A stretch of DNA of 64,000 bases, taken from contig NZ_BSTQ01000009.1 of the NCBI RefSeq assembly GCF_030269605.1, positions 124,001 through 188,000 of the forward strand, given 5' to 3'. Numbering within the stretch: position 1 is the stretch's first letter; the number at the start of each line of letters is the position of its first letter. Below the pieces are notes generated by a model. It made no database searches and had not been told where the DNA came from. It was given only the letters and a program-made list of their open reading frames with translations. Shown here piece after piece: positions 16,384 to 47,546 of this stretch. The stretch comes from Lentzea sp. NBRC 105346. GTDB lineage: Bacteria > Actinomycetota > Actinomycetes > Mycobacteriales > Pseudonocardiaceae. The translations under genes were made by a program, and so were the position numbers.

Positions 16384-16448
16384 ATCACCTGCAAAGGGCG
16401 AGTTGAACCCACGGGGCGACATGCCACGGTGGATTCAGGAGGCCGCTG

Positions 16449-17198: not shown

Positions 17199-17306
17199 CG
17201 AGCAGACGAGTGCACCCCGCGAGTTCGAAATCGCCAGGTCACCTACGGGAGGTCATAGATCTCCGTACACTCCGGACCGTCATCCGGATGGGAATTGGGG
17301 GCCGTG

Positions 17307-18533: not shown

Positions 18534-18566
18534 GTGGATCGACCGGGTTCCCCAACCACAGCGCCA

Positions 18567-18725: not shown

Positions 18726-18745
18726 CAAGGGGCGCGTCACCGCCG

Positions 18746-18763
18746 GTTCAGCGCTGAGTCAGT
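18746..18763 (+). promoter_or_regulatory. Possible SARP heptads before the first NRPS gene
   Basis: GTTCAGC (18746-18752) and AGTCAGT (18757-18763) are 11 bp apart, directly before the start region of the A-PCP gene (18771). GTTCAG recurs before the hydroxymandelate synthase (23639, 23651) and upstream of the large NRPS (29184). Weak but consistent with control by the cluster's SARPs. Confidence 0.35.
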
Positions 18764-18770
18764 GTGCGAC

Positions 18771-23669: not shown

Positions 23670-23734
23670 CCCCGGTGTTTGGATGGCTTCGAGGGGCCCG
23701 AACGGGGCCACCTGGGGTGCACTGGGGAGCAATC

Positions 23735-27212: not shown

Positions 27213-27235
27213 TCGAGCGGGCATGGGGGAGCAAG

Positions 27236-29240: not shown

Positions 29241-29293
29241 GTCACGCGGGAGCCCCGCGATGCGTGACATGCATCGCGGGGCTCCCGCGTGAC
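29241..29293 (+). terminator. Perfect 23-bp stem hairpin upstream of the large NRPS gene
   Basis: The arm at 29241-29263 (starting GTCACGCGGGAGCCCCGCG) is fully complementary to 29271-29293, with the 7-base loop GTGACAT, then TTTC. It lies 160 bases after the regulator stop and about 125 bases before the NRPS start. It may end the upstream operon or act as an attenuator. The rest of the 337-bp gap holds a GTTCAG site at 29184 but no gene I can support. Confidence 0.75.
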
Positions 29294-29417
29294 TTTCAGA
29301 CCCCGAGTGGAGGGGTTCGACGGCGGACCAGCGGGCAGTCAGCGGCGCGCCAGAGCCCGAGGCGAAGGTGGGTCGTGCGGTCCACGGCTGGGCCGCGGGG
29401 AGGTGGACCAGCCAGCC

Positions 29418-32400
29418 ATGACCAGCGCCCACGACCCGAACGGCCCGGACACCGTCCACGGCCTGTTCGAACGCCAGGCCGCCGCGACACCGGACGCCGT
29501 CGCGGTCCTCCGCGGCGACACCGCGCTCACCTACGCCGAGCTCGACGAGGCGGCGTCCCGCCTCGCGGTGCGGCTGCGTGAGCGCGGTGCCCGCCGCGGC
29601 GGTTACGTCGGTGTGCTGCTCGACCGCTCGCCCGAGCTCGTCGTCGCGCTGTTCGCGGTGCTGAAGTCGGGTGCCGCCTACATCGGTCTGGAACCGGCGT
29701 ATCCGCCCCGCCGGCTCGGTGTCCTGCTCGACGACGCCGGCGCCGGCCTCGTGGTGACCCGGTCCGATCTCGCCGACCGGCTGCCCGCCGACGCCTGCCC
29801 CGCGGTGCTGGTGGACGAGCCCTCCCCGCGCGGCGATCTCCCGGCCACCGCACATCCGGGCGACCTGGCCTACGTCATGTACACCTCCGGCTCGACCGGG
29901 CGGCCGAAGGGCGTCATGGTCGAGCACCGGTGCGTGACCGCCTTCCTCGCCGGGATCGGCAGCCGGGTCGACTTCGGTCCGGGGACACGGACCCTGCAGT
30001 TCGCCGGGATCACGTTCGACGCGACCGTCGGGGAGATCTTCGGGCCGTTGACCAACGGCGGTGCGGTGGTGCTTCCGCCGGCGGGAGCCGACCTGATCGG
30101 CCCGGGACTGGCCCGGCTGCTCGAACGGGAGTGCGTCACGACGGCGTTCCTGCCGCCCTCGGTGCTCGCGGTGCTGCCGGACGCGGAGTTGCCCGACCTG
30201 CGCGCCTTGGTGATCGGCGGCGAGGTGGTCCCCGCGGACGTCGTCGAGCGCTGGGAACGGGACCGGGCCTTCCACGTCGCCTACGGCCCCACCGAGACGA
30301 CGCTGATCGTCACCACGAGCGATCGGCGGTGGCCGGACCGGCCGCCGCCGATCGGCCATCCGCTCCCCGGTGTCGAGGCGTACGTCCTCGACGCCGACCT
30401 CTGGCCGGTCACGCCGGGAGCCGTGGGTGAGCTGTACCTGGGCGGCCCGACGGTGAGCCGCGGCTACCTCGGCCAGCCGGCGATGACCGCCGAGCGCTTC
30501 GGCCCGCATCCCTTTGCCGAGCAACCGGGTGCGCGGCTCTACCGGACGGGCGACCTCGCGCGCGTGTTGCCCGACGGGCAGCTCGAGTTCGTCGGCCGGA
30601 CCGACGACCAGGTGAAGATCCGCGGCGTCCGGATCGAACCCGCCGAGGTGGAGCGGGTGATCTCCACTCTGCCCGGCGTGCGCCAGTGCGCCGTGGTCGC
30701 CCGCGGCGAGGGCGCTGACGCCCGGCTGGTCGCGTTCGTCTGCGGTACCGAACTGTCGGCCGCGCGACTGCGGCGCGAGGCCGCCGCCGTCTTGCCGCCG
30801 ACGATGGTTCCGAGCCTGTTCGTGCCGCTCGCGGCGCTGCCCATGCAGACGCACGGCGGCAAGGTCGATCGCGCGGTGCTGCGCGCGCTGGAGCTCGACC
30901 CCAGGCCGGACGGCGTGCCCTTCGAGGACCCGGCGGACGACCTCGAACGCGCCATCGCCGCCATCTGGGAGGACGTGCTCGGCGTGCGGCCCGTGGGCCG
31001 GGCCGACGGCTTCACCCGGCTGGGCGGCAGCTCCCTGCAGGCCGCCGGCGTGCTCACCAGGATCGCCGCCGACCTCGGCGCCCGGCCGACCCTGCGGGAG
31101 TTCCTCGAGAGCGAGTCACTGGGCGGTCTCGCCGCCCTGATCCGCTCCGGGGTCGACGGACGAGCGTCGATCCCCGAGGTCACGCCGTCGAACGAGCCCA
31201 CCGTCCCATCGCCGGGACAGCGCAGGCTCTGGTTCCTGTCCCACCTGAACCCCGCCGCCGGTCCGGCCTACACCGTGCCGAACGCGTTGCGGCTGCGTGG
31301 ACCACTGGACCCGGCCGCACTCGAGAGGGCGCTCGCCGCACTCGTCGCCCGTCACGACGCGCTGCGGACGGCCTTCGAGCTGGTCGACGGCGCCCTGGTC
31401 GCGTCCGAGACCGCCGAGGTCAGTGCTCCGCTGAAAGTGGTCGACGCGACCGGGCGTCCGGCCGAGGAAGTCCTGGCCCAGGCCGCGACCGAGGCCGCGT
31501 CGCCCTTCGACCTCGCTCGTGCGCCGCTGATGCGGGCCACCCTCTACGAGCTCGCGCCGGACGATCACCTGATGGTCGTCGTCCTGCACCACCTGGTCAC
31601 CGACGGGTGGTCGCAGAACGTCTTCGACCGCGACCTGGCCCTGCTGTACGCGCGGGAGACCGGGGCGGGGCGGGACCCGAGTCCGCCCGCGCTGCGCTAC
31701 GCCGACTTCGCGCGCTGGCACGACGCGCTGGCCCGGTCCGGCGCGCTGGAACCCGGCCTCGCGTACTGGAGCGAGCAGCTCCGTGACGCTCCCACCGCCA
31801 TCGAACTGCCTGCCGACCGGCCCCGGCCGCCGGTCCAGACCCACCGGGGCGGCCGGGTGGCCACGACGCTGACCGCGGACCAGACGGCCGCCGTCGCCGC
31901 GCTCGCCGCCGCCGAGAACGCCACCCCGTTCGCGGTGTACCTGGCGGCCTTCGGCGCGCTCCTGCGCGGCGTCGGCGCGGGGGACGACATGGTGGTGGCC
32001 GCGCCGACGGCCGGGCGGCCGAGCCCGGACACCGAGGACGTGATCGGCTTCTTCACCAACACCGTGCTGCTCCGCCTGCGCCCGGACGCCCGGCAGACCT
32101 TCCGCTCGCTGCTCGGACAGGCCAGGGACCGCACGATGGACGCCCACGAGCATCAGTACGTGCCGCTCGACGCCGTCGTGGCACGGGTCGCGCCCGACCG
32201 CGACCTGTCCCGGCAGCCGATCGCGCAGGTGGCGTTCGCCTACCAGGGACCGCTGCGGCCGCGGGCCGCGCTGCCGGGACTCGCCGTCGAGCCGGTCGCG
32301 CTCGACAACGGCACCGCGAAGTTCGACCTCACGCTCGAACTCGACGAGCTGCCCCAGGGAACGCGGATCACCGCGGAGTACAGCGCCGACCTCTTCGAGC

Positions 32401-35400
32401 CCGCCACCGTCCGGCGACTCCTGGACTGGTACACGCGGCTCCTGGACGCGGCCGTCGCCGCCCCCGGCGAACAGCTGGGCGTCCTGCGGTTCACCACCGA
32501 GGCCGAACACAGCGTGATCCCGCCCAAAAAGGCCGGCACGGGCGGTTGCCTGCACGAGCTCTTCGCCGCCCAGGCCGCCCGCACCCCGGACCGGGTGGCC
32601 GTCAGCGACGACCGGACCAGCCTCACCTACCGCGAACTGGACCTGGCGTCCAACCGGCTGGCGCACCGGCTGCGTGCCCGCGGCGCCCGACCGGAGACGC
32701 TCGTCGGGATCTGCCTCGACCGCGGGGCGGACCTGGCCGTCGCGGCACTGGCCGTGCTGAAGGCGGGCGCCGGCTACGTGCCGCTCGACCCCGCCTACCC
32801 GCCGGCCCGGCTCGCGCTGACCATCGAGGACTCCGGCTGCCGCATGGTCGTGGGACGCGCAGATCTGGCCGTGGGGGCCGAGCTCGTCGACATCGCCGAC
32901 GCGTACGACACCACCGCGCCCGGCACGCCGCCGGACAGCGACGCGCGTCCGGAGCACACCGCCTACGTCATCTACACCTCCGGCTCGACCGGGCGCCCGA
33001 AGGGCGTGGTGGTGACGCACGCGAACGTGACCCGGCTGTTCGCCGTCACCGCCGGGGACTTCGGGTTCGGGCCCGAGGACACCTGGTCGCTGTTCCACTC
33101 CTTCGCCTTCGACTTCTCCGTGTGGGAGCTGTGGGGAGCGCTGCTGCACGGCGGCCGGGTCGTGATCGTCTCCTACCCCGTGAGCCGGGATCCCGAGGCG
33201 TTCTGGGAGCTGCTGCGCACCGAGCGCGTCACCGTGCTCAGCCAGACGCCGTCGGCGTTCCGGCAGCTCGCCGCGGTCGCCGCCGATCGCGGCCATCCGG
33301 CGACGGACCTGCGCCTCGTCGTGTTCGGCGGGGAGGCGCTCGAACCCGCGGTGCTGCGCGACTGGTTCGCCCATTACGGCGAGGAGTCCCCGCGGCTGAT
33401 CAACATGTACGGGATCACCGAGACGACCGTCCACGTGACACTGCGGCCCGTTGTGGCAGCGGACGCCGAGGCGGCAGGTAGCCCCATCGGCGGCCCGCTC
33501 GCCGACCTCGGGCTGGCATTGCTCGACGCAGACCTCGAACCGGTCCCGGTCGGCGTGCGGGGCGAGCTGTACGTGAGCGGCGCGGGCGTCTCCCGCGGCT
33601 ACCTCGGACGGCCCGGTCTCACCGCGGAGCGCTTCCTGCCCGACCCCTTCACCGGCGGCCGGATGTACCGGACCGGGGACCTCGCGATCCTGCGCCCGGA
33701 CGGCGAGCTCGTGTTCTGCGGGCGCGCCGACCAACAGGTGCAGCTGCGCGGCTTCCGGATCGAGCCGGGGGAGATCGAGGCGACGCTGCTCGCCGAGCCC
33801 GAGGTCCGTTCGGCGGCTGTGGTGGTGCGCGCAGACGGGAACGTGGAACGGCTCGTCGGCTACGTCGTCCCGGCACCGGGCGCGGAACCGGACGTCGCCG
33901 CACTGCGCGGACGGCTCGCCGAGCGGCTGCCCGCGCACATGGTGCCCGCGGTGCTGGTCGTTCTCGACGAGCTGCCGCTCACGGTGAACGGCAAGCTCGA
34001 CCGTGCCGCGCTCCCGGCCCCGGAGGTGCGGCGGCCCGCGGTGGTGAGGCCGGACGCGTCCGCCTCCGCCACGTTGTGCGGCATCTGGGCGGACGTGCTC
34101 GGCGTCGAGCGGGTCACCGAGGACGACGACTTTTTCGTGCTGGGCGGCGACTCCATGCTCGCCGTCCAGGTCGTGGCGGCCGCCCGTGCCGCCGCCCTGC
34201 CGATGACGGTCGCGGACCTCTTCGCCCATCCCACAGTCGCCGAGCTGGTGGCGTCCGTTCGCACCGTCGAAGATGCGGCAGGCGACGCGCTGGACCGCCT
34301 GACCGACGGCACGGAGGGCCTGGCCGACGCCTACCCGGCCGCGACGCTGCAGACCGGGATCATCTACGAGTACGAGATCCGCGACGACCCGACCCTCTAC
34401 CACGACCTGAGCACCGTCCGCCTCTCCGGACCGCTCGACCCCGTCGCACTCGACGACGCGCTGAACGCCGTCTCGGCCCGGCACGACCTGCTGCGCGCCT
34501 CGTTCGACCTGCTGCACGAGGACGGACCGGTCCTGCGGATCCACAAGGAGGCACCGCTCCCGCTCACGGTGCTCGAGGCACCGGACGGGCACGCGTCGGT
34601 CCGGGACTGGTGGACGGCGCAGTGGCACGAGTGGTTCGACCTCACCGAGCCTCCGCTGGCCAGGTGTCACGCGCTGGACCACGGCGACGGCACGTGGACT
34701 CTGGCGCTGTCCGTGCATCACGCGGTGCTGGACGGATGGAGCCTCGCGGTCTTCCTCACCGACGTCGTGCGCGCCTACGACCTCCGGTTGGCGGGAGAGC
34801 GCGGCGAGCACGAGAGCGCGGGCTCCTACCGCGACTTCGTGGCACTCGAACAGCGGACGGCGACCGACCCGCGTGCCGCCGAGTTCTTCACGACGATGCT
34901 GCGGGGACGCGGTCCGGCGCCGGCGACGTCCGCCTTCGACGGGCCGGCCGATCCCGATGTCGACGTCCGGCGCCTGATCGAGCCGGAGGTATGGCGCGGT
35001 GCGCAGGACGCGGCCACGCGGCTGGGTGTGCCCGTCAAGAGCGTCTTCCTCGCCGCGCACCTGCGGGCGCTGGCCACCCTCACCGGCTCCGCCGACGTCG
35101 TGACCGGCCTGACCGTCAACGGCCGCCCCGAGACGGACGGCGCGGAACGCCTGATCGGCATGTTCGTCAACAGCGTGCCGCTGCGCGTCGACACCAGCGG
35201 CGGCTGGCCCGACGTGATCACCTCGGCCTGGGCCGCGGAACGCGAGCTCGCGCCCTGGCGCAGGTTCCCCGTGGCCACCCTGCGCGGCGCCCTCGGCTCG
35301 GCGCCGTTCGACGTCCTGTTCAACTACGCCGACTTCCACGCCTACGACTCGCTCGCCGGCCTCCGGCACGTCCGGCCGCTGGAGTTCTGGTACTCCGACC

Positions 35401-35567
35401 GCAACGACTTCCCGATGACCGTCACGGTCGCGCGGCGGCCACTCGCGAAGGAACGGGAGCTGATGGTCCGGGTGCGGCCGGACCTCGCCGGCGACGGGCG
35501 GGCCGCTCGCATGGCCGATCTGGTGTTGGCGTCGCTCACCGATCTCGAAGGGCGGCCGGTCCGATGA
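29418..35567 (+). CDS. NRPS: A-PCP-C-A-PCP-C
   Basis: A 2049-aa NRPS. Domains: A1 ~10-490 (pocket reading about DAGFVGALI plus Lys, no clear match); PCP1 with Ser539 (TRLGGSSLQ); C1 ~595-1020 with HHLVTDG (724-730); A2 ~1045-1530 with FDFSVWE and NMYGITETTVH, pocket about DFWSVGMVHK, very close to the Thr code DFWNIGMVHK; PCP2 with Ser1579 (LGGDSML); and a C-terminal C domain ~1637-2045 with HHAVLDG (1767-1773). A1 has no C before it, so this protein can start a chain; A1 is the best place for Hpg by elimination, although its code is not the usual Hpg one. The ending C domain passes to another C in the next protein. ATG 29418 is used; GTG 29403 and ATG 29289 are in frame. ATGA overlap with the next gene. 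Confidence 0.92.
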   Translation: MTSAHDPNGPDTVHGLFERQAAATPDAVAVLRGDTALTYAELDEAASRLAVRLRERGARRGGYVGVLLDRSPELVVALFAVLKSGAAYIGLEPAYPPRRLGVLLDDAGAGLVVTRSDLADRLPADACPAVLVDEPSPRGDLPATAHPGDLAYVMYTSGSTGRPKGVMVEHRCVTAFLAGIGSRVDFGPGTRTLQFAGITFDATVGEIFGPLTNGGAVVLPPAGADLIGPGLARLLERECVTTAFLPPSVLAVLPDAELPDLRALVIGGEVVPADVVERWERDRAFHVAYGPTETTLIVTTSDRRWPDRPPPIGHPLPGVEAYVLDADLWPVTPGAVGELYLGGPTVSRGYLGQPAMTAERFGPHPFAEQPGARLYRTGDLARVLPDGQLEFVGRTDDQVKIRGVRIEPAEVERVISTLPGVRQCAVVARGEGADARLVAFVCGTELSAARLRREAAAVLPPTMVPSLFVPLAALPMQTHGGKVDRAVLRALELDPRPDGVPFEDPADDLERAIAAIWEDVLGVRPVGRADGFTRLGGSSLQAAGVLTRIAADLGARPTLREFLESESLGGLAALIRSGVDGRASIPEVTPSNEPTVPSPGQRRLWFLSHLNPAAGPAYTVPNALRLRGPLDPAALERALAALVARHDALRTAFELVDGALVASETAEVSAPLKVVDATGRPAEEVLAQAATEAASPFDLARAPLMRATLYELAPDDHLMVVVLHHLVTDGWSQNVFDRDLALLYARETGAGRDPSPPALRYADFARWHDALARSGALEPGLAYWSEQLRDAPTAIELPADRPRPPVQTHRGGRVATTLTADQTAAVAALAAAENATPFAVYLAAFGALLRGVGAGDDMVVAAPTAGRPSPDTEDVIGFFTNTVLLRLRPDARQTFRSLLGQARDRTMDAHEHQYVPLDAVVARVAPDRDLSRQPIAQVAFAYQGPLRPRAALPGLAVEPVALDNGTAKFDLTLELDELPQGTRITAEYSADLFEPATVRRLLDWYTRLLDAAVAAPGEQLGVLRFTTEAEHSVIPPKKAGTGGCLHELFAAQAARTPDRVAVSDDRTSLTYRELDLASNRLAHRLRARGARPETLVGICLDRGADLAVAALAVLKAGAGYVPLDPAYPPARLALTIEDSGCRMVVGRADLAVGAELVDIADAYDTTAPGTPPDSDARPEHTAYVIYTSGSTGRPKGVVVTHANVTRLFAVTAGDFGFGPEDTWSLFHSFAFDFSVWELWGALLHGGRVVIVSYPVSRDPEAFWELLRTERVTVLSQTPSAFRQLAAVAADRGHPATDLRLVVFGGEALEPAVLRDWFAHYGEESPRLINMYGITETTVHVTLRPVVAADAEAAGSPIGGPLADLGLALLDADLEPVPVGVRGELYVSGAGVSRGYLGRPGLTAERFLPDPFTGGRMYRTGDLAILRPDGELVFCGRADQQVQLRGFRIEPGEIEATLLAEPEVRSAAVVVRADGNVERLVGYVVPAPGAEPDVAALRGRLAERLPAHMVPAVLVVLDELPLTVNGKLDRAALPAPEVRRPAVVRPDASASATLCGIWADVLGVERVTEDDDFFVLGGDSMLAVQVVAAARAAALPMTVADLFAHPTVAELVASVRTVEDAAGDALDRLTDGTEGLADAYPAATLQTGIIYEYEIRDDPTLYHDLSTVRLSGPLDPVALDDALNAVSARHDLLRASFDLLHEDGPVLRIHKEAPLPLTVLEAPDGHASVRDWWTAQWHEWFDLTEPPLARCHALDHGDGTWTLALSVHHAVLDGWSLAVFLTDVVRAYDLRLAGERGEHESAGSYRDFVALEQRTATDPRAAEFFTTMLRGRGPAPATSAFDGPADPDVDVRRLIEPEVWRGAQDAATRLGVPVKSVFLAAHLRALATLTGSADVVTGLTVNGRPETDGAERLIGMFVNSVPLRVDTSGGWPDVITSAWAAERELAPWRRFPVATLRGALGSAPFDVLFNYADFHAYDSLAGLRHVRPLEFWYSDRNDFPMTVTVARRPLAKERELMVRVRPDLAGDGRAARMADLVLASLTDLEGRPVR

Positions 35568-38500
35568 GCCGGGATCTCGGCGAGCTGCTGGACAAGCTCA
35601 CTCCGCAGCAGCGCAGGCTGCTCCAGGCCAGGCTGGCCCAGCGGAGCGCGGCACCAGCGGACGAGCTGTTACCCCTGTCGCCCGCGCAGGAGCGGCTGTG
35701 GCTGGCCGACCGGCTCGCGCCGGGCCGATCGGTGCCGGTCGCGTTCGCGGTCCGAATGACCGGCCCACTGGACCAGACCGTCCTGCACGCGGCGATCGGG
35801 GACGTCTTCGCTCGTCAGTCGGCGCTGCGCACGGTGTTCCGGGAGACACCGGACGGCCCGCGCCAGCTCGTTCTCGACGAGTTCGTGCCGCCCCTGCCGG
35901 TGATCACCGCGGAGGCACCGGAGATCGCCGAGCGGGCCCGGCCGGAGTTCGACCTGACCGCCGCCCCTCCGGTGGCCGTGACGTTGTTCGAGCTCGGCCC
36001 GCAAGAACACCTGCTGCTGGTCTGTGCCCACCACATCGTCATCGACGGCTGGTCCACCGAGGTCTTCCTGGGCGACCTGGTCGCCTGCTACGCCCGCCGC
36101 ACCGGCGGAGACGCCGAACTGCCCGAGCTCCGCCTGCGCTTCGCCGATCACGCCGCGGCGGAACGGGAGGCGGCCGCCGACGAACGGCTCGCGGCGCAGC
36201 TCGCCCACTGGCGCGAGCGGTTGGCCGGCGCCCCGGCCCTGTCGACCGTCCCGGAGGACCGGCCCCGCCCACCCGTGCAGAGCGGGCGGGGCGCCCAGAC
36301 GGAGTTCGCACTCGCCGCCGAGGTGACCGACCGCCTGGTGGCGACGGCCCGGCGGGCCGGGGTCACCCTCAACAACGTCGCCACCGCGGCCTTCGCGGCA
36401 CTGATCCACCAGGCCACCGGTCAGGACGACGTGCTGTTCGGCACGCCGGTCGCGCGCAGGCGGCGCACGGAACTCGAGCCGATCGTCGGCTGCTTCGCCG
36501 ACACGCTGGTGACGCGGGTCGATCTGTCCGGTGGTCCGTCGGGCGCCGAGCTGATGCGCCGGGTCCAGCGGTCGGCCGCCACCGCGGCGGCGCACCAGGA
36601 CGTGCCGTTCGCCCGGCTCGTGCAGGAGCTCGCGCCCGCCCGGCGGCTCGCGTACAACCCGCTGTTCCAGATCATGCTCAGCGTCAGCGAGATCGGCGCG
36701 GAGGACCCGCGCGAGGCGGGCGGCGTCACGTTCACGCCGGAGCACGTCGACACGGGCACCACCGACTTCGACATGTTCCTGACGCTGCGCCGCACGGCCG
36801 CCGGGCTGACCGGTGTCCTCAGGTACAGCACCGACCTCTACCTGGACGAGACGGCCCGGCACGTCGCCGACGGGCTGGCAACCGTGCTGACCGGACTCGC
36901 GGACGACCCGGACCGGCCGATCGCCGAATTGGTCCGCCGTCGCACGGTCGGGGTGGCGGCGTCGTTCACGGCCGAGCCGATGGGCGAGGCGATGCGGTTC
37001 TGGTCCGGCTACTCCCGCGTCCCGTGTGACGTGCGGTTCGCGCCCTACGGCCAGGTCCTCCAGCAGCTCCTCGCCGGTGACGCGAACGACGGACAGATCG
37101 TCCTCCTGCGCTGGGACGACTGGTCCCGCCGCAGGTCCGGCGACTCCTCCGCGGACTTCCTCGACGGCGTGGCCGACGACCTGCTCGCGGGCGTCGCCGC
37201 CTTCCGCTCCCGGACGAGCGCGCCGTTGCTGATCATGGTGTGCCCGTCGGAGGAAGACGCCGCGGCCGCCGACGAGAGGCTGGCCATGGGCCTGGCCGGT
37301 GTGCCCGGCGTGGAGGTGACCTGGCCCGCGGAGTTTGCCGCCGGGCTGGGTGTCACGGAGGTCGCCGACGCCGCCGCCGATGCGTTCGGGCACGTCCCGT
37401 TCACCGACGAGTTCTTCGCCGCAGTGGGAACGCTCGCCGTGCGGCGGATGCACGCCGCGTGGCGCGTGGTGCCGCCGGGGCCGCAACGCGCGGACCACAC
37501 CGCGACCGAACTCGCCACCGCCGCGCAGATCATGAAGGCGGCGCGGCGGCCCGCGGAGCCCACCGTCGTCGAGCAGGAGCACGTCCCGCCGCGCACGGAA
37601 ACGGAGCAGCGGCTGGCGGCGCTGTGGGCGGATCAGCTCGGCGGCGCCGAGGTCGGCGCGCGCAGCAGCTTCTTCGCGCTGGGCGGGCACTCGCTGCTGG
37701 CCACCAGGATGCTTTCCCTGGTGCACCGGGAATTCGGCGTCACCGTGCCGTTCCACGACTTCTACGCCGACCCCGTGATCACGGCGATGGCCCACGCGAT
37801 CGACGTGGCGCGTGCCGCGGGCGACGATGCCGCCCCGGAGCCCGGTGGTCCGGCCATCGTCCCGGTGTCCCGCGACCGGCCCGTCGAACCGCCCGCGACC
37901 CAGCGGCGGCTGTGGGCGCTCGCGCAGCTCGGCCTCGACTCGGCGGCGATCACGTTCGCGGCCACCCTGACCGGGCCGCTCGACGAGGCGGCGCTGTGCG
38001 GGGCCGTGGACGACGTCGTACAGCGGCACGAGGTCCTGCGCACGACGTTCGGCACCGAGCGGGGCCGCCCGGTCCTGGTCGTGCACGACCGGCTCGACAC
38101 GGTCCGGATCGACAACGTCACCGGCGACCCGGCCGCAGCGATCCAGGCATTCGCGAGTCAGCCGTACGACCTGGCGACGGGACCGCTGCTGCGGGTACGG
38201 CTCCTGCGTGCCGGACCCGACCGGCACCACCTGCTGATCGGCATCCACCCCATCGTCTGCGACGACGGGTCCTGGCACCTCTTCCTGTCGGACCTGTCCG
38301 CGGCCTACCGGGCCCGGCTGGGCCAGGACGAGCCACTGCCCCCGCTGCCTGTCCAAGTCGCGGACTACGCGGTGTGGGAACGAGACAAGCTGGTTGCCGA
38401 GACCGACTCGGCCTACTGGGCCGACAGGCTCCGCGACGCCCCGCCACGGCTGGAACTGGCTCGTGCCCGTGCGGGCTCGGCGGGCAACGCCGGTGCGGCG

Positions 38501-40222
38501 ACCCGGCCGCTGGGCGACGACCTGGGCGCACGCGTCGAGGAGCTCGCTCGGGTGTGCGGCGTCAGCACGTTCGTCGTGCTGCTCACCGCGTACGCGCTGG
38601 TGCTGGGCGAGGAGAGCGGCCGGGGTGACGTCGTGCTCGGCGTGCCGTCCGCGGGCCGGGACCGCCCGGAGCTGCAGGACGTGATCGGCCGCTTCGCCCA
38701 CCTGATGCCGCTGCGCCTGGACGTGTCGGGGGCGGCGACGTCGCGGGCGCTGCTGCGCCGCGTGCACGAGACGGTGCTGAGCGCGCAACGCCATCAGGGC
38801 GTGCCGTTCAGCCGCATCGTCGAGGTGGTCCGGCCGCCGCGCGACCCGTCGCACCATCCCGTCTTCCAGCACGCGCTCAACGTGGTGGGCGAGACGTCGG
38901 CCGGCCTCGACCTGCCGGACGTGTCCGTGCGGACGCTCGATGTTCCGGAGCGGGACACCAGGTTCGAGCTGTTCTTCCACCTGCACTGGCGGGACGGCGT
39001 GCTGTCCGCGAACGCCGAGTACGACACCACCAGGCTCGGCGCGGACGTGGTGGACGACCTGCTCGCCCGGTTCGAGTCGGTCGTCGTGCGAATGAGCGAC
39101 GCGCCCGACGCCGCCGTTCCTGGGCCACCGCTACCGGAGCCCGTCCGAGTCCGGCCGCGGGTCGTGCCGAGGCTGGCCGTCGCCACAACGCGTGACGCCG
39201 GGCCGATCCGCGACGAGGCCGAGCGGCTGCTGGCGCGCTTCGACATCAAGCCCGGTCTCGCCGTCACGTCCCGTGTGTTCGGCACGTTGCTCGATCCCGC
39301 CGGCGCCTTCGCCGCCGAGGGGATCAACGTGGTCGTGCTGCGCTGGGCCGATCTGATCGGTGCTCCGGTGCCCGCACGGCTGGGCGCGCTCGTGCGCCGC
39401 CTGGACGACGCGGTGACCGGCGTCGTGGCGGCGGTCCGGGCGTACCGGTCCTGGTCGAGCCGCCCGCTGGTGGTGCTGGTTCCGACCTCCGATGGCGTGC
39501 TGGAGCCCCGGCTGGAGGCACGCCTGGACGCCCGGCTGCACGTCGAGCTCGCCGCGCTGGGTGGGATCGAGGTCCTGAGCGGCCCGTTGCCGGCGTCGGC
39601 CGGCGAGACGGCCGTGCGGCGGCTGCACCAGGCGTTCCGCGTCAGCCCGGTGAAATGGGTGATCACCACGGAGACCGGCTGGTCACCGGTCGACCTGGTC
39701 CGGCTGGCCGCGCTGCAGCACGGTCACGGCCGCCGGCTCGTCGTGTGCGTGCCGCCCGGCACCGAGGCGCCCGCTCACCTCGAGGGGGTCCGCCTGATCG
39801 AGGGCGACATGGCCGCCGCACTGTCCGAAGTGGACGGTACTGAGAGTGTTGTGCTGCTGCCGGAGGGTGACGACCCCTGGGTCGCCGTGGAAAGGTGCTG
39901 GGAGCTGGACCCGCCGATGGCGACGTCCGGCTGGTCGCCCGCGGTGCCGCTGACCCTGGCGGAACCGGCGGGCGAGAAACCCCGCGACGATCGGGAACGG
40001 ATGCTGGCGCGTATCTGGGCCGACCTGCTGGACCTGCACGTCGACCTGATCGGCGTCAACGAGAACTTCTTCGCACTCGGCGGCGATTCGATGCTCGCCA
40101 TCCAGGCCGCCCACCGAGCGAACGAGGCCGGTGTCCCCATGACCGCAAGACAGTTCTTCGCGCATCCCACGATCGCCGAGCAGACCGCCCTCGTACCAGG
40201 GAAGGACATGAGTCGCCTGTGA
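35564..40222 (+). CDS. NRPS without adenylation domains: C-X-PCP-C-X-PCP, X FkbH-N/SGNH-like
   Basis: A 1552-aa protein. A helical N terminus (LGELLDKLTPQQRRLLQARL) leads into C1 (~36-460, HHIVIDG at 156-162); X1 (~463-645); PCP1 (Ser710, LGGHSLL); C2 (~778-1190), where the HHxxxDG motif reads HPIVCDDG at 895-902 so the catalytic second His is Pro; X2 (~1203-1450); PCP2 (Ser1509, LGGDSML). X1 has GVAASFTAEPM, FAPYGQVLQQLL and VLLRWDDW, the pattern of FkbH/HAD-IIIC N-terminal domains; X2 is a diverged copy (TLLDPAGAFAAEG, then NVVVLRWADL). No A-domain motif and no TE is present, so both PCPs must be loaded in trans. Coupled at both ends by 4-bp overlaps. Confidence 0.88.
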   Translation: MSRDLGELLDKLTPQQRRLLQARLAQRSAAPADELLPLSPAQERLWLADRLAPGRSVPVAFAVRMTGPLDQTVLHAAIGDVFARQSALRTVFRETPDGPRQLVLDEFVPPLPVITAEAPEIAERARPEFDLTAAPPVAVTLFELGPQEHLLLVCAHHIVIDGWSTEVFLGDLVACYARRTGGDAELPELRLRFADHAAAEREAAADERLAAQLAHWRERLAGAPALSTVPEDRPRPPVQSGRGAQTEFALAAEVTDRLVATARRAGVTLNNVATAAFAALIHQATGQDDVLFGTPVARRRRTELEPIVGCFADTLVTRVDLSGGPSGAELMRRVQRSAATAAAHQDVPFARLVQELAPARRLAYNPLFQIMLSVSEIGAEDPREAGGVTFTPEHVDTGTTDFDMFLTLRRTAAGLTGVLRYSTDLYLDETARHVADGLATVLTGLADDPDRPIAELVRRRTVGVAASFTAEPMGEAMRFWSGYSRVPCDVRFAPYGQVLQQLLAGDANDGQIVLLRWDDWSRRRSGDSSADFLDGVADDLLAGVAAFRSRTSAPLLIMVCPSEEDAAAADERLAMGLAGVPGVEVTWPAEFAAGLGVTEVADAAADAFGHVPFTDEFFAAVGTLAVRRMHAAWRVVPPGPQRADHTATELATAAQIMKAARRPAEPTVVEQEHVPPRTETEQRLAALWADQLGGAEVGARSSFFALGGHSLLATRMLSLVHREFGVTVPFHDFYADPVITAMAHAIDVARAAGDDAAPEPGGPAIVPVSRDRPVEPPATQRRLWALAQLGLDSAAITFAATLTGPLDEAALCGAVDDVVQRHEVLRTTFGTERGRPVLVVHDRLDTVRIDNVTGDPAAAIQAFASQPYDLATGPLLRVRLLRAGPDRHHLLIGIHPIVCDDGSWHLFLSDLSAAYRARLGQDEPLPPLPVQVADYAVWERDKLVAETDSAYWADRLRDAPPRLELARARAGSAGNAGAATRPLGDDLGARVEELARVCGVSTFVVLLTAYALVLGEESGRGDVVLGVPSAGRDRPELQDVIGRFAHLMPLRLDVSGAATSRALLRRVHETVLSAQRHQGVPFSRIVEVVRPPRDPSHHPVFQHALNVVGETSAGLDLPDVSVRTLDVPERDTRFELFFHLHWRDGVLSANAEYDTTRLGADVVDDLLARFESVVVRMSDAPDAAVPGPPLPEPVRVRPRVVPRLAVATTRDAGPIRDEAERLLARFDIKPGLAVTSRVFGTLLDPAGAFAAEGINVVVLRWADLIGAPVPARLGALVRRLDDAVTGVVAAVRAYRSWSSRPLVVLVPTSDGVLEPRLEARLDARLHVELAALGGIEVLSGPLPASAGETAVRRLHQAFRVSPVKWVITTETGWSPVDLVRLAALQHGHGRRLVVCVPPGTEAPAHLEGVRLIEGDMAAALSEVDGTESVVLLPEGDDPWVAVERCWELDPPMATSGWSPAVPLTLAEPAGEKPRDDRERMLARIWADLLDLHVDLIGVNENFFALGGDSMLAIQAAHRANEAGVPMTARQFFAHPTIAEQTALVPGKDMSRL

Positions 40223-41590: not shown

Positions 41591-42028
41591 ATGACCGACA
41601 CCGCCGCCACGGCCGACCCCGCCTACCGGGTGGTCGTGAACGACGAGGAGCAGTACTCAATCTGGCCGGACCACAAGGAGAACCCGCCCGGCTGGCACGA
41701 CGCCGGGAAGACCGCGAGCAAGCAGGAGTGCCTCGCCTACATCGAGGAGGTGTGGACGGACATGCGCCCGCGGTCCGTCCGCGAGGCCGGGTCCGACGCC
41801 ACGCCGCTGGTCCGGCTCATCGCCGAGGTCCTGCAGACCGACCCGGCGCTGATCGACGACGACTCCGGGCCGGGCAGGTCCGGCATGTGGACGAGCCTCA
41901 AGCACGTCCAGCTCGTCACGACGCTGGAGCACACCTTCGGCATCTCGTTGTCGCAGGCCGAGATCCGCGGCATGAACTCCGTCGCGGCCATCCGGGACAC
42001 GCTGCGAGCCAAGAACGCGCTCGTCTGA
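41591..42028 (+). CDS. MbtH-like protein fused to an acyl carrier protein
   Basis: A 145-aa fusion. Residues ~8-68 are MbtH-like, with [19 protein letters not shown] and [18 protein letters not shown]; MbtH proteins bind A domains and support their folding and activity. Residues ~72-145 are a carrier protein ([19 protein letters not shown]) with the likely phosphopantetheine Ser102 in [17 protein letters not shown] precedes the ATG. MbtH fused to an A domain is known; fusion to a lone ACP is unusual. It lies just before the E1/E2 genes, which suggests that the ACP receives their acyl group while the MbtH part tethers it to an A domain of the NRPS. Confidence 0.88.
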
Positions 42029-42076: not shown

Positions 42077-43015
42077 GTGACCAACGACCTGGCGACGACC
42101 ATCGCGACGGTGCCGGACGGCACCGGCAGCGGTTCGCCACCGGCGGACGCCGACCTGGCGACGATGTTGCTGATCCGCCACTTCGAGCTCGCCCTGCTCG
42201 ACCTGTTCGCGCGGGGCGAGCTGCACGGCACCACGCACACGTGCCTGGGACAGGAACACGTACCGGTCGCGCTGGCACCGCTGCTGGGCGAGCGCGACTA
42301 CGTGTTCAGCAACCACCGCGGCCACGGCCACTACATCGCCAGGTTCGGCGACCCCGCCGGCCTGCTCGCCGAGATCATGGGCCGGGAGGGTGCCGTCTGC
42401 AACGGTGTCGGGGGTAGCCAGCACATCTTCCGCGACCGCTACCTGTCCACCGGCGTGCAGGGGGAGAGCCTCCCGGTCGCCGCCGGGGTCGCCCTGCACC
42501 TCAAGCGGCACGAGCCGGGAGCGCTCGCGCTCACCTACATCGGCGACGGCACCTGGGGTGAGGGCGCGGTCTACGAGGCGCTCAACATGGCGGCGCTGTG
42601 GCGGCTGCCGCTCCTCGTCGTCGTCGAGCACAACGGCATCGCCCAGTCGACGGCCACCGACGCGAACATGGCGGGCACCATCGGCGCCCGCGCCGCCGCG
42701 TTCGGCATCGCCCACATGCGCGTCGAGAGCATCAGCCCCGCCGAGATCCGGACCGTGGCGGGGCCGCTCGTCGACAAGGTGCGGCACGGCGCTCCGCTGG
42801 TGCTGGAGTTCGTCACGAACCGGCTCGGGCCGCACAGCAAGGGCGACGACACCCGGACGGACGCGGAACTGCGCCGGGTGCGCGCGGCCGACTGGCACGC
42901 GGTGTACCGGGAGGCGCCGGGGTTCGCGGAGGCCGACTCTCTCGCAGCGGCCCAGGTCGCCCAGTTGGTGGACGAGGTGTCCGCGCGGCAGCCGGCGGTT
43001 TGGAGCACAGCGTGA
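42077..43015 (+). CDS. TPP-dependent 2-oxoacid dehydrogenase E1 alpha-like subunit
   Basis: A 312-aa E1alpha homologue. The thiamine diphosphate motif begins GDGTWGEGAVYEALNMAALW (from residue 156) and ends at VVEHN about 30 residues later; FSNHRGHGHYIARFG and NGVGGSQHIF are also typical of the family. With E1beta it would decarboxylate a 2-oxoacid or cleave a ketose and pass the two-carbon unit to a lipoyl group. Start GTG 42077 after GGGAGAGG. It overlaps E1beta by 4 bp. Placed inside an NRPS cluster next to an ACP, it is unlikely to be the housekeeping pyruvate dehydrogenase. Confidence 0.92.
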   Translation: MTNDLATTIATVPDGTGSGSPPADADLATMLLIRHFELALLDLFARGELHGTTHTCLGQEHVPVALAPLLGERDYVFSNHRGHGHYIARFGDPAGLLAEIMGREGAVCNGVGGSQHIFRDRYLSTGVQGESLPVAAGVALHLKRHEPGALALTYIGDGTWGEGAVYEALNMAALWRLPLLVVVEHNGIAQSTATDANMAGTIGARAAAFGIAHMRVESISPAEIRTVAGPLVDKVRHGAPLVLEFVTNRLGPHSKGDDTRTDAELRRVRAADWHAVYREAPGFAEADSLAAAQVAQLVDEVSARQPAVWSTA

Positions 43016-44049
43016 ACGGGCGGCCGGTGCGGGTGGTGGAAAACCTCAACCACGCGCTGCACGAGAGCATGCTGGCCGACTCCCGGCTGTACGTGCTCGG
43101 CGAGGACATCGCCGACCCGTACGGCGGCGCGTTCAAGGCGACGCGCGGGCTGTCGCAGGCCAACCCGGACCGGGTGATCACCACACCGATCAGCGAGAAC
43201 GGCATCGTCGGCGTGGCCGCCGGGCTGGCCATGGCCGGGGACGCGGCGATCGTCGAGATCATGTTCGGCGACTTCGCCGGCCTCGCGTTCGACCAGCTGC
43301 TCAACTTCGCCAGCAAGTCCGTGTCCATGTACGGGCGGCCGCACCCCATGCGCCTGGTGGTGCGCTGCCCGTCCGGCGGCAGCCGCGGCTACGGTCCGAC
43401 GCACAGCCAGACCCTGCTGAAGCACTTCATCGGGATTCCCGGACTGTCGCTGTTCGAGATGTCACCGTTCCACGACAACCGGGCGGTGCTGGCGCACATG
43501 CTCGGGCTCGGCGAACCGTGCGTGTTCATCGAGGACAAGGTGCTCTACACGCGCCGGATGGCCGGGGACGGCCAGGTGGACGACCTGTTCGACTACGGCT
43601 TCCTCGGCGCGGGCGACACCGCCCCGGCGCACGTGTACACCGAGGCCCATGGTGACGTGGACTGCCTGATCATCGCGCCGGGCGGCATGGCGGAACGCGC
43701 CCTGGCCGCCATGCGGGATCTGTTGCTGCGCCACGAGATCAGCTGCCGGCTCGTGGTCCCCTCCCGGCTGTACCCGGTGGAGACCGATGCGCTGCTGGAC
43801 GCGGCACGGCACGCCGCGCACGTCTGCGTCGTCGAGGAGAGCACGGCGGGCGGGACCTGGGGCGCGGAGGTCGCGCACGTCCTGCACGAGCGGCTGTGGG
43901 GGCGGCTGCGCCGGCCCGTCCGGCTGGTCCACTCGGCCGACAGCGTCATCCCGACGGCCGTCCACTTGGAACGAGAGATTCTGGTCCAGGCCGACACGAT
44001 CGTCGAGGCCGTGCTCGCGGACCTGCGTGGCGAAGGGAGCCCGGTGTGA
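43012..44049 (+). CDS. TPP-dependent 2-oxoacid dehydrogenase E1 beta-like subunit
   Basis: A 345-aa transketolase-like E1beta. Pyrimidine-binding domain ~1-190 (LYVLGEDIADPYGGAFKATR, then TTPISENGIVGVAAGLAM and SRGYGPTHSQ), and transketolase C-terminal domain ~205-335 (LVVPSRLYPVETDALLDAA, CVVEESTAGGTWGAEVAH). Start GTG 43012 overlaps the E1alpha stop (GTGA), and its own TGA overlaps the E2 start, so the three subunits should be made in equal amounts. Confidence 0.92.
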   Translation: MNGRPVRVVENLNHALHESMLADSRLYVLGEDIADPYGGAFKATRGLSQANPDRVITTPISENGIVGVAAGLAMAGDAAIVEIMFGDFAGLAFDQLLNFASKSVSMYGRPHPMRLVVRCPSGGSRGYGPTHSQTLLKHFIGIPGLSLFEMSPFHDNRAVLAHMLGLGEPCVFIEDKVLYTRRMAGDGQVDDLFDYGFLGAGDTAPAHVYTEAHGDVDCLIIAPGGMAERALAAMRDLLLRHEISCRLVVPSRLYPVETDALLDAARHAAHVCVVEESTAGGTWGAEVAHVLHERLWGRLRRPVRLVHSADSVIPTAVHLEREILVQADTIVEAVLADLRGEGSPV

Positions 44050-45221
44050 TCGACATCGAGGTGCCGAAGCTCAACAACAACGACACCACCTACGTGCTCG
44101 TCGAGTGGCTCGCGGAGGACGGGCAGCGGCTGGAGGAGGGCGATCCGGTGGCCGTGGTCGAGACGTCGAAGGCCGCCGAGGAGCTGTGCTGCGAGCACGG
44201 TGGTGTCCTGCAGCGGCTCGTCACCGCGACGCCGGCCGACTGCGGTCAGGGCGACGTCATCGCCCACCTCTTCGCGTCCGAGACGGAGCGGCAGGAGTTC
44301 CTGGCGAACCAGAGCAGCACCAAGCCGTCTACAGTGGACATTCCCGTCGGCTTGCCCACACTCACCGAACCCGCGCGGCTCCTCGCCGAACAGCACGGCG
44401 TGGAGCCGGCCGCCCTGGCGCGGCTCGGACTCCGGGTCGTCCGCGAGGCCGACGTGCGCCGGCTGCTGAGCGAGGCGTCCAAGATCGAGGCATCCAGTGG
44501 TGGCGAGGCGAAAACGCACACCCCGAACCGGGCACAGCGCGCGGTCGCCGCGGCGGTTTCCCAGTCCCACCAGGAGATTCCGGCCGCCTTCACCGCCGCC
44601 GTCGTCACCGTCGACTCCGCGCTGGCCACCGCCAGGGAGCTGTCGGAGCGGACCGGAGCGCTCATCGGGCTCCCCGAGCTGCTCGTGGCCGTCCTCGGCC
44701 GCCTGCACGAGCGGTTCCCACTCTGCTACGGCACTCCCACCGCCGAAGGCACGCTGTTGCTGCCCGAGGCGGCGCACGTCGCCATCACCGTCGACGTCGG
44801 ACGCGGGCTCTTCGCGCCGGTGGTGAAACGGGCGGGCGAGCAGCCGCTCGACGAGATCTCCGGCCTGCTGATGGACTACCGCATCAAGGCCATGCGGGAG
44901 GCCTTCCAGACCGAGGACCTCAACGGTGCCAACATCCTGCTGTCGCTGAACAACGACGACGACATCCTGTTCGCCCAGCCGATCGTGTTCCCGGGCCAGA
45001 CGTGCGCGGTGGCGCTGGGCGGCACCCGCCGGGAGGCGGTGTTCGCCGACGACGGCTCCGTCACCTCGCGATCGGTGGCCGTCGTCGGGCTCGCCTACGA
45101 CCATCGGTTCGTCAACGGCAGCACCGCGGTGGAGTTCCTCAAGGCGATCAAGGTGGCGCTCGAGTCGCCCGCAACGTTCGTGCGGGGTGCGGAGGTGGGT
45201 GCCGATGCCGGCGACCGCTGA
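44046..45221 (+). CDS. Lipoyl-E2 acyltransferase-like protein
   Basis: A 391-aa E2 homologue. Residues 1-78 are a lipoyl domain with Lys42 in VVETSKAAEEL (usually ETDKA). Residues ~100-145 look like a weak E3/E1-binding domain (ARLLAEQHGVEPAALARLGL), and ~160-390 the catalytic domain with His353 in AYDHRFVNGSTA. In normal complexes the acyl goes to CoA; here an ACP is the likely acceptor, as in the acyl-ACP systems known from naphthyridinomycin/quinocarcin pathways and the E2-like enzymes of tetronate pathways. No E3 gene is in the window. It overlaps the FkbH-like gene by 17 bp. Confidence 0.9.
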   Translation: MIDIEVPKLNNNDTTYVLVEWLAEDGQRLEEGDPVAVVETSKAAEELCCEHGGVLQRLVTATPADCGQGDVIAHLFASETERQEFLANQSSTKPSTVDIPVGLPTLTEPARLLAEQHGVEPAALARLGLRVVREADVRRLLSEASKIEASSGGEAKTHTPNRAQRAVAAAVSQSHQEIPAAFTAAVVTVDSALATARELSERTGALIGLPELLVAVLGRLHERFPLCYGTPTAEGTLLLPEAAHVAITVDVGRGLFAPVVKRAGEQPLDEISGLLMDYRIKAMREAFQTEDLNGANILLSLNNDDDILFAQPIVFPGQTCAVALGGTRREAVFADDGSVTSRSVAVVGLAYDHRFVNGSTAVEFLKAIKVALESPATFVRGAEVGADAGDR

Positions 45222-46764
45222 GCGGGACGCCCTGGCCGACGCGGCCGCCGCCGTGCGGACCCGCCGCCGGGGCTTGTCCGGGGCCCCGGCCGACTTGACC
45301 GTGGGGCTGCTGGCCTCCTACACGATCGATCCGATCGAGCCGTACCTGCACGTGGCGCTGGTGGACGCCGGCCTGGTCCCCGAGATCGTCGTCGGGCCGT
45401 TCAACCAGATCCTGCCCGAGTGCCTCGACGACCGCGGGCGGATGGCCCGGCTCGCTCCCGACGTGCTCGTGGTCGCTCCGCGCTGGGAGGAGATGCCGGA
45501 CGGCGAGGAGGAGGGCGAACTCCTGCGGCTCGCGGACGCGGCGCTGCGGGCCACGGATCGGTGGGAGACGTGCCTGGTGTTCGTGCTGCCGGCCCTGCCG
45601 CAGCACGAGGCCGGGGTGGCCGACGCCGGGCACACCGACGGGATCACCGCGGCCGCCACGGCGGCCAGGCAGCGACTGCGGGATCGGCTCGCGGGCCGTC
45701 CTCACGTGCTGGTGGCCGATGCGGAGGAGGCGGTGCGCGACGTCGGCGCCATGCGTGCCCACCACCCGGCGCTCTTCGCGTTCGCGCGCATCCCCTACAC
45801 CGAGGAGGTGTTCTGGCGGCTCGGGCTGGGCGTGGCCCGGCTCGTGGGCGTTCGCTTCGGCGGCGTTCCCCGCGCTGTGGTGCTCGGCGGCGACGTCCTG
45901 ACGCAGCCGTCCGCGGAGGTGCTCCGCGACCCGTTGCTCCGGCTCGGCGAGGCCGGAGCGCGTCTTGCCGTCGCCGTGCCGGACGACGAGGACGCGTTCC
46001 TGGAAGCGCTGACGGGCGAGTGGGCTCCGCTGGCGCCGCGCCTGGGCGTCGGGCCGTTACCCGAGGTGGGCACGCGACTCGGACCGAGCCTGCTGCTGAC
46101 CGCGGACGCCGGGCTGGCGGACGCGGCCGGCGCGATCGACGGGGTGCGGCCGGTGCTTCTCGGTCCGGCGCCCGAGACCTGGCCCGCGCAGCTGCGGGAG
46201 GCCGGTGTCTTCGACCGGCCCCTGCCCCGGCGGCCCGCACCGGACGGCGTGGCCCAGCCCGTGTCGCCGGTGGAGTCCGGGCAGACGTTGTCGCTGGAGG
46301 ACTTCGTGGCCGGCCTGGACGTCTCGGTCACGTTCGACGAGCCGGGCGCGGTGTCGGAGAAGATGACCGAGTTGCTCGCGCGGGCCAAGGACTTCGTCCT
46401 CGGCCCGGTGCCCGAGGACTTCGCCGCCCGCGACGACCGGCTGCTGCTCACCGCCGGAGTGCGCGACCGGTTCGGCGACTACGGCATGGGTGCGGTGGCA
46501 GCGTTGACGTTCACCTCCGGCGTCTGCGGAGTCGAGGTGTTCTCGGTGTCCTGCCCGGTGATGGGCCGCGGTGTCGAGCCGCTCGTGCTGCAGCGGATCG
46601 TGGAGATCGCGGGACGCCGCGGCTGCGGTGTCGTCGAGCTCGTTCTGAACCCCACCGGGCGCAACGACGTGGCACTCGAGTTCGCCGCCGAGGCCCAGGG
46701 CCGCACGTGGAGCGACGGCGACGGCCGGGCGATCGCGGTCCGCGCGGTGGAACGCCGATGGTGA
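45205..46764 (+). CDS. FkbH-like protein with degenerate HAD domain
   Basis: A 519-aa protein with three parts. N-terminal SGNH-like domain (~33-205): TVGLLASYTIDPIEPYLHVA and VVGPFNQILPECL. Middle HAD-like domain (~215-385), where the usual LDLDNTLWGG reads VVLGGDVLTQ, so the nucleophilic Asp is Gly. C-terminal acyltransferase-like domain (~400-519): RDRFGDYGMGAVA and VSCPVMGRGVEPLV, matching the FkbH C terminus. FkbH proteins load glyceryl from 1,3-bisphosphoglycerate onto ACPs; this copy probably cannot do the phosphatase chemistry. ATG 45205 follows GGAGG. It shares its N-terminal domain type with the two X domains of the NRPS at 35564. Confidence 0.82.
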   Translation: MPATAERDALADAAAAVRTRRRGLSGAPADLTVGLLASYTIDPIEPYLHVALVDAGLVPEIVVGPFNQILPECLDDRGRMARLAPDVLVVAPRWEEMPDGEEEGELLRLADAALRATDRWETCLVFVLPALPQHEAGVADAGHTDGITAAATAARQRLRDRLAGRPHVLVADAEEAVRDVGAMRAHHPALFAFARIPYTEEVFWRLGLGVARLVGVRFGGVPRAVVLGGDVLTQPSAEVLRDPLLRLGEAGARLAVAVPDDEDAFLEALTGEWAPLAPRLGVGPLPEVGTRLGPSLLLTADAGLADAAGAIDGVRPVLLGPAPETWPAQLREAGVFDRPLPRRPAPDGVAQPVSPVESGQTLSLEDFVAGLDVSVTFDEPGAVSEKMTELLARAKDFVLGPVPEDFAARDDRLLLTAGVRDRFGDYGMGAVAALTFTSGVCGVEVFSVSCPVMGRGVEPLVLQRIVEIAGRRGCGVVELVLNPTGRNDVALEFAAEAQGRTWSDGDGRAIAVRAVERRW

Positions 46765-47546
46765 GCCGCAGCCGGCTCACCCCGTTGTTGTGGCGCTTCG
46801 GCGACGCCGCCGACGCCGGGGGAGTGACGTTCGTGCTCGCCCCGTTCGCCGGCGGCAGCGCGTACTCGCTCGCCACCCTGCCGCCCCGGCTGCTGCGGCC
46901 GGGCGATACCGCGCTGGTGGTCCAGTACCCCGGCCGCGGGCCCCGCATCACCGAGCCGCACGCCTCCGGTCTGGCCGAGCTGGCGGAGGAGGCCGCCCGC
47001 GACATCGTCCGGCACGCCGACGGCCCGCTGGTGCTGGCCGGGCACAGCATGGGCGGAGTTCTGTGTTACGAGCTCGCCTCGCTGCTGACGGCCATGGGCC
47101 GGCCGCCGGCGTGGGTGGTCGTCTCGGCCGCTCGCGCCCCGGACCGCACCCGGCTCGACCCCGAGCGGGTGCTGTCGATGGGCCGCGAGGACTGGCTCGC
47201 CGAGATCGCCGCGGGCGCGCTGGTACCGCCCGCCGACGTGAGTGAAGTCGCCGACCTGCTGATTCCGGTCATGCGAGCCGACTACCTGATGCTCGCCCGG
47301 TACCGGCCCGTGCACGGCCCGCTCGCGGTGCCGCTGCTCGCGCTCGGCGGGGCGGCCGATCCGTGGGTGACCGACGATCATCTCGCGGCGTGGGAGCCCT
47401 GGACTGCCGGAGACTTCGAGCGCCGGACGTTGCCCGGCGGCCACTTCTACTACCGCGACCGGCTCGCCGAGTTCTGCGCGGCGATCCGGGGCGGGCCCCT
47501 GGCCGCGGCGGACCGTTTCGGCATGCGGCTCGACCTGCGCAATTAA
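46758..47546 (+). CDS. Type II thioesterase
   Basis: A 262-aa alpha/beta-hydrolase of the RifR/GrsT type. Ser97 lies in GHSMGGVLCYEL, the oxyanion segment is LAPFAGGSAYS, the acid is in ALGGAADPWVTDDH and the base in LPGGHFYYRD. Such enzymes remove wrong acyl groups from carrier proteins; in a cluster without a visible TE domain it might also release the product. ATG 46758 overlaps the FkbH-like stop by 7 bp. It is the last gene of the long + strand run. Confidence 0.93.
   Translation: MVSRSRLTPLLWRFGDAADAGGVTFVLAPFAGGSAYSLATLPPRLLRPGDTALVVQYPGRGPRITEPHASGLAELAEEAARDIVRHADGPLVLAGHSMGGVLCYELASLLTAMGRPPAWVVVSAARAPDRTRLDPERVLSMGREDWLAEIAAGALVPPADVSEVADLLIPVMRADYLMLARYRPVHGPLAVPLLALGGAADPWVTDDHLAAWEPWTAGDFERRTLPGGHFYYRDRLAEFCAAIRGGPLAAADRFGMRLDLRN

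Follow-up and report, generated by a model that had tools for sequence, protein, structure and literature searches.

How carrier proteins come to be loaded in a nonribosomal peptide synthetase (NRPS) that has no adenylation (A) domain is the question raised by a gene of Lentzea sp. NBRC 105346, encoded at 35564-40222 of a 64,000-nucleotide stretch of its genome (contig NZ_BSTQ01000009.1, positions 124,001 to 188,000), referred to here as the window. The reading frame is open, codes for 1552 amino acids and overlaps by 4 bases the 3' end of an upstream NRPS gene (29289-35567). Pfam assigns to it two Condensation (C) and two PP-binding (peptidyl carrier protein, PCP) domains in the order C, PCP, C, PCP, the other row being a sub-cut-off match to PapA_C within the first C domain. 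No AMP-binding domain is matched even at E<=1, and the A domain found between C and PCP in a canonical NRPS elongation module is lacking in both modules, as the initial annotation of this DNA had claimed. That annotation put the gap between C and PCP at about 190-240 residues, which holds for the first gap region (X1, 217 residues); the second (X2) is longer, with 289. The current analysis identifies these regions as probable N-terminal (NEX) domains of FkbH proteins, and points to a stand-alone FkbH relative encoded nearby (F45, 45205-46764) as the protein that would load the two PCPs.

The short motifs that had suggested a likeness between X1 and F45 are located at residues 463, 492 and 513 of the synthetase, and at 45304 and 45394 in the gene of the stand-alone protein. 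In Smith-Waterman comparisons, with z scores computed against 500 shuffles, X1 matches the N-terminal domain of F45 with a z of 12.5 and is matched to X2 with a z of 10.2, none of the shuffles scoring as high in either case; the likeness between X2 and the F45 domain is weak by itself (z 2.7, 6 of 500 shuffles as high). The hidden Markov model (HMM) of X1 recognises the FkbH proteins P0024-P0027 with domain E-values of about 1e-28 to 2e-27. An SGNH-like fold matching the N-terminal domain of an FkbH-like protein has also been obtained, which for X2 rests on VIA-align, where 3slr is ranked top and aligned over 249 of 270 residues. No A-domain fold is found. The best Foldseek row for X2, the NRPS A-KR structure 6ulw (E 5.7e-3, root-mean-square deviation 20.8), is not significant, and the X regions as relics of an A domain are set aside for want of an AMP-binding match. 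A search of PDB by sequence with alignment A2 of the NEX domains returned one chance row only. The sequence comparisons and models thus support the assignment of the X domains as predicted FkbH N-terminal, SGNH-fold domains. X2 had been described as a diverged copy of X1, which stands; in addition part of the FkbH HAD phosphatase survives in it as a remnant.

Eleven close orthologues of the synthetase have been found, and counts and identities among them are for twelve sequences including that of the window. The mean pairwise identity is 0.783 for X1, 0.780 for C1 and 0.802 for PCP1, X1 being equal to its catalytic neighbours in conservation. It is 0.712 for the NEX part of X2 and 0.349 for the phosphatase remnant, which is absent in the orthologues P0017-P0020. 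The PCP serines 710 and 1509 are both invariant in 12/12. Alignment A2 has 19 columns that do not vary among X1, its sister X domains and the N-terminal domains of two true FkbH proteins. The arrangement known from BurF, NEX alone with no phosphatase or transferase part in cis, is seen fully in X1, and X2 retains a phosphatase remnant devoid of the motif.

F45 shares with FkbH proteins (TIGR01686) the NEX, HAD-like and GNAT-like parts and a cysteine in the transferase part (SCPVMGRGVE), which we take to be the acyl-carrying residue. It differs in having VVLGGDVL where FkbH has DxDNTLW, the HAD nucleophile motif DxDxT being absent, and in scoring 55.9 bits with TIGR01686 against a cut-off of 146.65. 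The protein had been annotated as FkbH-like; by motif it is predicted to be phosphatase-dead. A search of PDB by sequence with F45 gave no match. In 396 genomes of the phylum F45 exceeds 43 bits in its own genome only, a weak claim of rarity because at most three candidates per genome were scored.

In a tree of NEX domains (68 rows; L012, L013, L015-L017, overlapping or fragmentary, and matches shorter than 120 residues or with masked stretches are omitted) all 12 rows of F45 fall into one clade (100/100), distinct from the domains of C-X-PCP modules, 26 of 29 of which form a separate group (95/97). A recent origin of the X domains by copying of F45 is therefore rejected. Ten of the 14 first copies cluster together (86/81), as would be expected from an old module duplication. 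Four first copies, those of L044, L045, L047 and L049, are on a long branch among the second copies, and X2 of the window, L023 and L024 is on a long branch outside the C-X group, its placement being unsure.

The NEX alignment, used to scan genome_contigs (84,980 species), identified 37 loci, or 38 with the window. In 15 of them there are two C-X-PCP modules and X is not followed by a HAD motif, in 20 NEX precedes an intact HAD motif, and three (L036, L048 and L054) belong to neither class. The F45-type gene is present in 14 of the 15 double loci. In the fifteenth, L029, the contig piece stops inside the synthetase gene and F45 is split over two unjoined contigs of the same assembly (L111, L112), one of which also bears MbtH, an acyl carrier protein (ACP), E1a, E1b and E2. 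None of the 20 intact-HAD loci has the F45-type gene. Some of them being short, the whole genomes of all 20, several of which are metagenome-assembled, were searched with F45; the best score was 64 bits, in the transferase region of an FkbH encoded in cis.

The reverse search with F45 of 24 genomes of the genus revealed seven genes of at least 170 bits in six other genomes, all adjoining C-NEX-PCP-C-(NEX)-PCP-E, MbtH and ACP; in L107 the first X alone passed the threshold, the second NEX falling below it. The combined set is of 22 loci in 21 genomes, L102 and L106 sharing one. F45 with an adjoining ACP occurs at 22/22 loci, in 21 of them on the contig that bears the modules. The transferase cysteine is kept in all 22, and the HAD motif is absent in all 21 F45 proteins that could be read there, this stretch being masked in L044. 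A scan of viral_contigs with P0001 found nothing.

The loci outside the two classes have organisations of their own. In Paenibacillus alvei (L036:8708-13047) a C-NEX whose HAD is dead is followed by an ACP and this by an F45-like FkbH in which the HAD is intact; by its sequence the locus is possibly an intermediate stage toward loading in trans. L048 and L054, both of Burkholderia, have a single C-NEX-T module (T, thiolation domain). Beside it in L054 (13299-14340, Burkholderia ubonensis) is a stand-alone NEX-GNAT gene without HAD motif, which looks like the same reduction in another phylum. In L103-L108 the second module has two adjacent carrier-protein matches before an epimerisation (E)-type domain.

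Two kinds of enzymes that could supply an acyl unit adjoin these modules. E1a, E1b and E2 are encoded together at 10/22 loci (the window, L023, L024, L025, L026, L029 on the other contig, L031, L041, L059 and L102), and an intact-motif FkbH with KASIII at 12/22 (L025, L026, L032, L035, L041, L059 and L103-L108), both being present at four. One or other source of a C2 or C3 hydroxyacyl-ACP is thus found at 18/22 loci. KASIII is seen only in sister clusters that also have FkbH; in L032 (16382-18970) and L035 (near 15937-18906) F45 and KASIII are fused in one protein, followed by an intact-HAD FkbH. The initial annotation had E1/E2 with the ACP as the source of the acyl unit. As the primary partner of the X modules E1/E2 is not supported, being present at 10 loci as against 22 for F45 with ACP, and it is rejected as an obligatory partner. 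In the window all PDH/OGDH rows of NCBIfam for E1 and E2 are listed below the cut-offs; the ACP, E1 alpha, E1 beta and lipoyl-E2 of a glycolyl-ACP set are encoded together, as likened by gene table.

We consider it fairly probable that the synthetase is a trans-loaded C-NEX-PCP pair on which F45 hands an ACP-borne acyl unit, here likely glycolyl, to the PCPs. Both modules would descend from C-FkbH-PCP modules that have lost the phosphatase and acyltransferase parts and retained NEX, the lost functions being supplied in trans by F45 with its dead phosphatase and conserved transferase cysteine. The unit would be made on, or moved to, the ACP encoded at 41591-42028; the cysteine of F45 would accept it, NEX would hold F45 at the synthetase by docking, and F45 would pass the unit to the PCP thiols. 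C1 could then join the upstream chain to the PCP-bound unit, giving an ester if this is a hydroxy acid. The unit in the window would most likely be glycolyl, from a ketose phosphate via E1/E2, and in sister clusters FkbH (glyceryl) would take over from E1/E2 as the source. Loading in trans is suggested by the co-occurrence with F45 and ACP. The initial annotation had the X domains receiving, passing on or docking the unit of the E1/E2/ACP set; docking or hand-over is still the best reading, but E1/E2 is not the primary partner, and that annotation identified the X domains correctly and came close on their role.

The terminal module of BurF in malleicyprol biosynthesis, C-NEX-T-Red, likewise has NEX alone between C and T and no A domain. 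Its T domain is loaded in trans by BurJ/BurH with an alpha-hydroxy acid, its C domain forms an ester, in agreement with the mechanism proposed here, and the authors assume that NEX mediates the contact with the transfer protein BurH (available text of PMC12304814). Unlike BurF as described there, the present synthetase has two tandem modules, a presumed HAD-dead partner (F45) with ACP, and E1/E2 or FkbH as the source of the unit; no Red domain is seen. In the C-FkbH-PCP glyceryl modules of foxicin, vioprolide and cystomanamide, as far as the available portions of the reports describe them, an FkbH region replaces the A domain, as here, and the cis FkbH is described as glyceryl loader (PMC5318452, PMC8949500); in the present synthetase NEX, in X2 with a remnant, is what is left, and loading would have to be in trans.

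The order ACP-E1a-E1b-E2 in the window matches SclQ1-4 of scleric acid, assigned to glycolyl-ACP by homology to QncN/L/M (PMC6335953, in part). By their description in the available text, DinS/T/U and NapB/C/D (PMC7570522), like Scl and Qnc, also combine ACP, E1 and lipoyl-E2. In dnacin the homologous set is said to supply its C2 unit to a module with an A domain described as inactive, and KASIII is proposed as the loader of the ACP (PMC7570522). The accessible parts of the reports on these glycolyl-ACP systems mention neither NEX nor F45 (PMC6335953, PMC7570522). The C-NEX-T kind was published in 2025; the current analysis adds the tandem form, a HAD-dead partner that co-occurs steadily with the modules, and suppliers that are interchangeable. 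In the CC-licensed literature searched nothing was found on C-NEX-PCP with a HAD-dead FkbH.

Several observations weigh against the proposed mechanism. Foldseek on X2 alone gives no match at E<=0.001, and the 22 loci, belonging to related clusters, do not count as independent. At L044, L045, L047 and L049 neither E1/E2 nor FkbH is near, and the unit there is unaccounted for. The gene table of scleric acid, in the accessible part of PMC6335953, has the same glycolyl set and no F45. The catalytic histidine of C2 is lost in 6/12 close orthologues including that of the window, so that the second module may not condense; the second histidine is replaced by Pro in the window (HPIVCDD, residue 895) and P0013 and by Gln in P0017-P0020. 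A terminal E-type domain is found in most relatives beyond the close orthologues and would point to an amino acid.

That the PCPs receive an amino acid from the stand-alone A-PCP protein (18762-20606), F45 being an aminoacyl transferase and the E1/E2 unit entering elsewhere, is unlikely. This A-PCP protein and Hpg-type (hydroxyphenylglycine) genes are within the cluster, the E-type domain is terminal in many relatives, and complementation in trans of dead or missing A domains is known (PMC8949500, in part). Against it stand the hydroxyacyl-ACP sources at most loci and the state of the E-type domains. The Glu of EGHGR is catalytic in E domains; it is replaced by A or T in 11/11 of these domains and in six of seven further loci (the motif was not found in L102), and is kept in 3/3 unrelated control E domains (L036, L056, L057). 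The E-type domain is therefore rejected as proof of an amino acid.

It is rather improbable that the X domains are catalytic themselves, as SGNH-type transacylases or editing esterases moving the unit from ACP to their own Ser/Thr and on to PCP, with another role for F45. The residues in question are also conserved, among 47 rows, in the NEX of full FkbH proteins, which have a phosphatase and transferase of their own. The Ser of GDS and the Asn of GxND are SGNH signatures, and neither is obvious by eye in the X domains. F45 is moreover present at every locus. In the available text of the BurF report the authors saw no residues suited to mutation (PMC12304814). That X1 and X2 are functionless relics, spacers between C and PCP, is very improbable in view of the conservation of X1 and the 19 invariant columns noted above, in spite of the vanishing remnant in X2 and the decay of one NEX copy in most lineages.

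This decay usually affects the second copy, and the first in L044, L045, L047 and L049, where its HMM scores are 20-30 as against 84-88; both copies score alike in L029 and L031, with a profile that derives from first copies in the group to which the window belongs and is biased toward first copies. It fits the sufficiency of one NEX per synthetase, but also a simple decay of a spare module.

Features of the window are given in Table 1. The upstream NRPS has a terminal C domain (HHAVLDGWS), and two C domains therefore meet at its junction with the A-less synthetase. Its second A domain has, read by eye, the code DFWSVGMVHK, presumably for Thr. MbtH and ACP are fused in frame; one shared reading frame is also seen in L023, L024 and L102, whereas L031 and L103 encode the two separately. 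Were C1 to take the beta-ketoacyl chain of the KS-AT-ACP module as donor and glycolyl as acceptor, one could speculate on a beta-keto ester product, possibly the precursor of a tetronate-like ring. The frame 24789-27212 combines an FMN-dependent 2-hydroxyacid oxidase with a class I/II aminotransferase and adjoins an HPPD-family gene (23675-24805); by sequence it looks like a fused Hmo-HpgT for hydroxyphenylglycine supply. In or near the cluster there are also genes for three regulators of SARP type (BTAD), at 9021-12068, 26969-29080 and 47720-48547, of which two have NB-ARC/AAA parts.

Table 1. Coordinates of the synthetase, its domains and neighbouring genes in the window
Feature	Position	Strand	Basis or remark
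Stand-alone A-PCP	18762..20606	+	
Polyketide synthase module KS-AT-ACP	20603..23629	+	
Upstream NRPS A-PCP-C-A-PCP-C	29289..35567	+	Start upstream of A domain uncertain
A-less NRPS C1-NEX1-PCP1-C2-NEX2(+HAD remnant)-PCP2	35564..40222	+	1552 amino acids; translation, Pfam, domain map, orthologues
C1 condensation domain	35669..36931	+	Motif HHIVIDG at residue 156
X1 (NEX1), predicted FkbH-type N-terminal SGNH-fold domain, residues 458-640	36935..37483	+	
PCP1, Ser710	37583..37798 (end approximate)	+	Pfam
C2 condensation domain	37877..39112 (start approximate)	+	HPIVCDD at residue 895
X2, NEX part, diverged	39161..39637	+	Profile, AF2, VIA-align
X2, remnant of FkbH HAD phosphatase	39638..39970	+	3slr over 249/270 residues; orthologue alignment
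PCP2, Ser1509	39980..40192 (end approximate)	+	Pfam
MFS efflux transporter, 451 amino acids	40219..41574	+	
MbtH-ACP fusion, ACP the presumed donor carrier	41591..42028	+	Pfam (ACP just below cut-off), translation
E1 alpha (thiamine diphosphate-binding) subunit	42077..43015	+	
E1 beta (transketolase pyrimidine-binding and C-terminal domains)	43012..44049	+	
E2, lipoyl domain and acyltransferase catalytic domain	44046..45221	+	
F45: NEX, HAD phosphatase-dead by motif, GNAT-like domain	45205..46764	+	VVLGGDVL; Cys motif SCPVMGRGVE
Stand-alone thioesterase	46758..47546	+	

NEX gains from these observations a testable job, as a free NEX is accompanied by a phosphatase-dead FkbH transferase at 22 loci and no F45-like partner was found in 20 genomes with NEX joined to a working FkbH. 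A wider proposal is put forward tentatively: C-NEX-PCP may be a widespread actinobacterial class with the choice of substrate outside the synthetase, in which the dead-HAD FkbH is a dedicated carrier-to-carrier acyltransferase, one intact NEX recruits it for both PCPs and leaves the other NEX free to decay (the first copy in one lineage, the second in others), and suppliers of C2 (ketose) or C3 (1,3-bisphosphoglycerate) units are interchangeable on one ACP/F45/NEX core. If trans-loading by F45 is true, NEX with F45 would be a portable device by which NRPS carriers are loaded with units other than amino acids and no adenylation domain is needed, and members of the family would flag clusters whose likely products are depsipeptides containing glycolyl or glyceryl.

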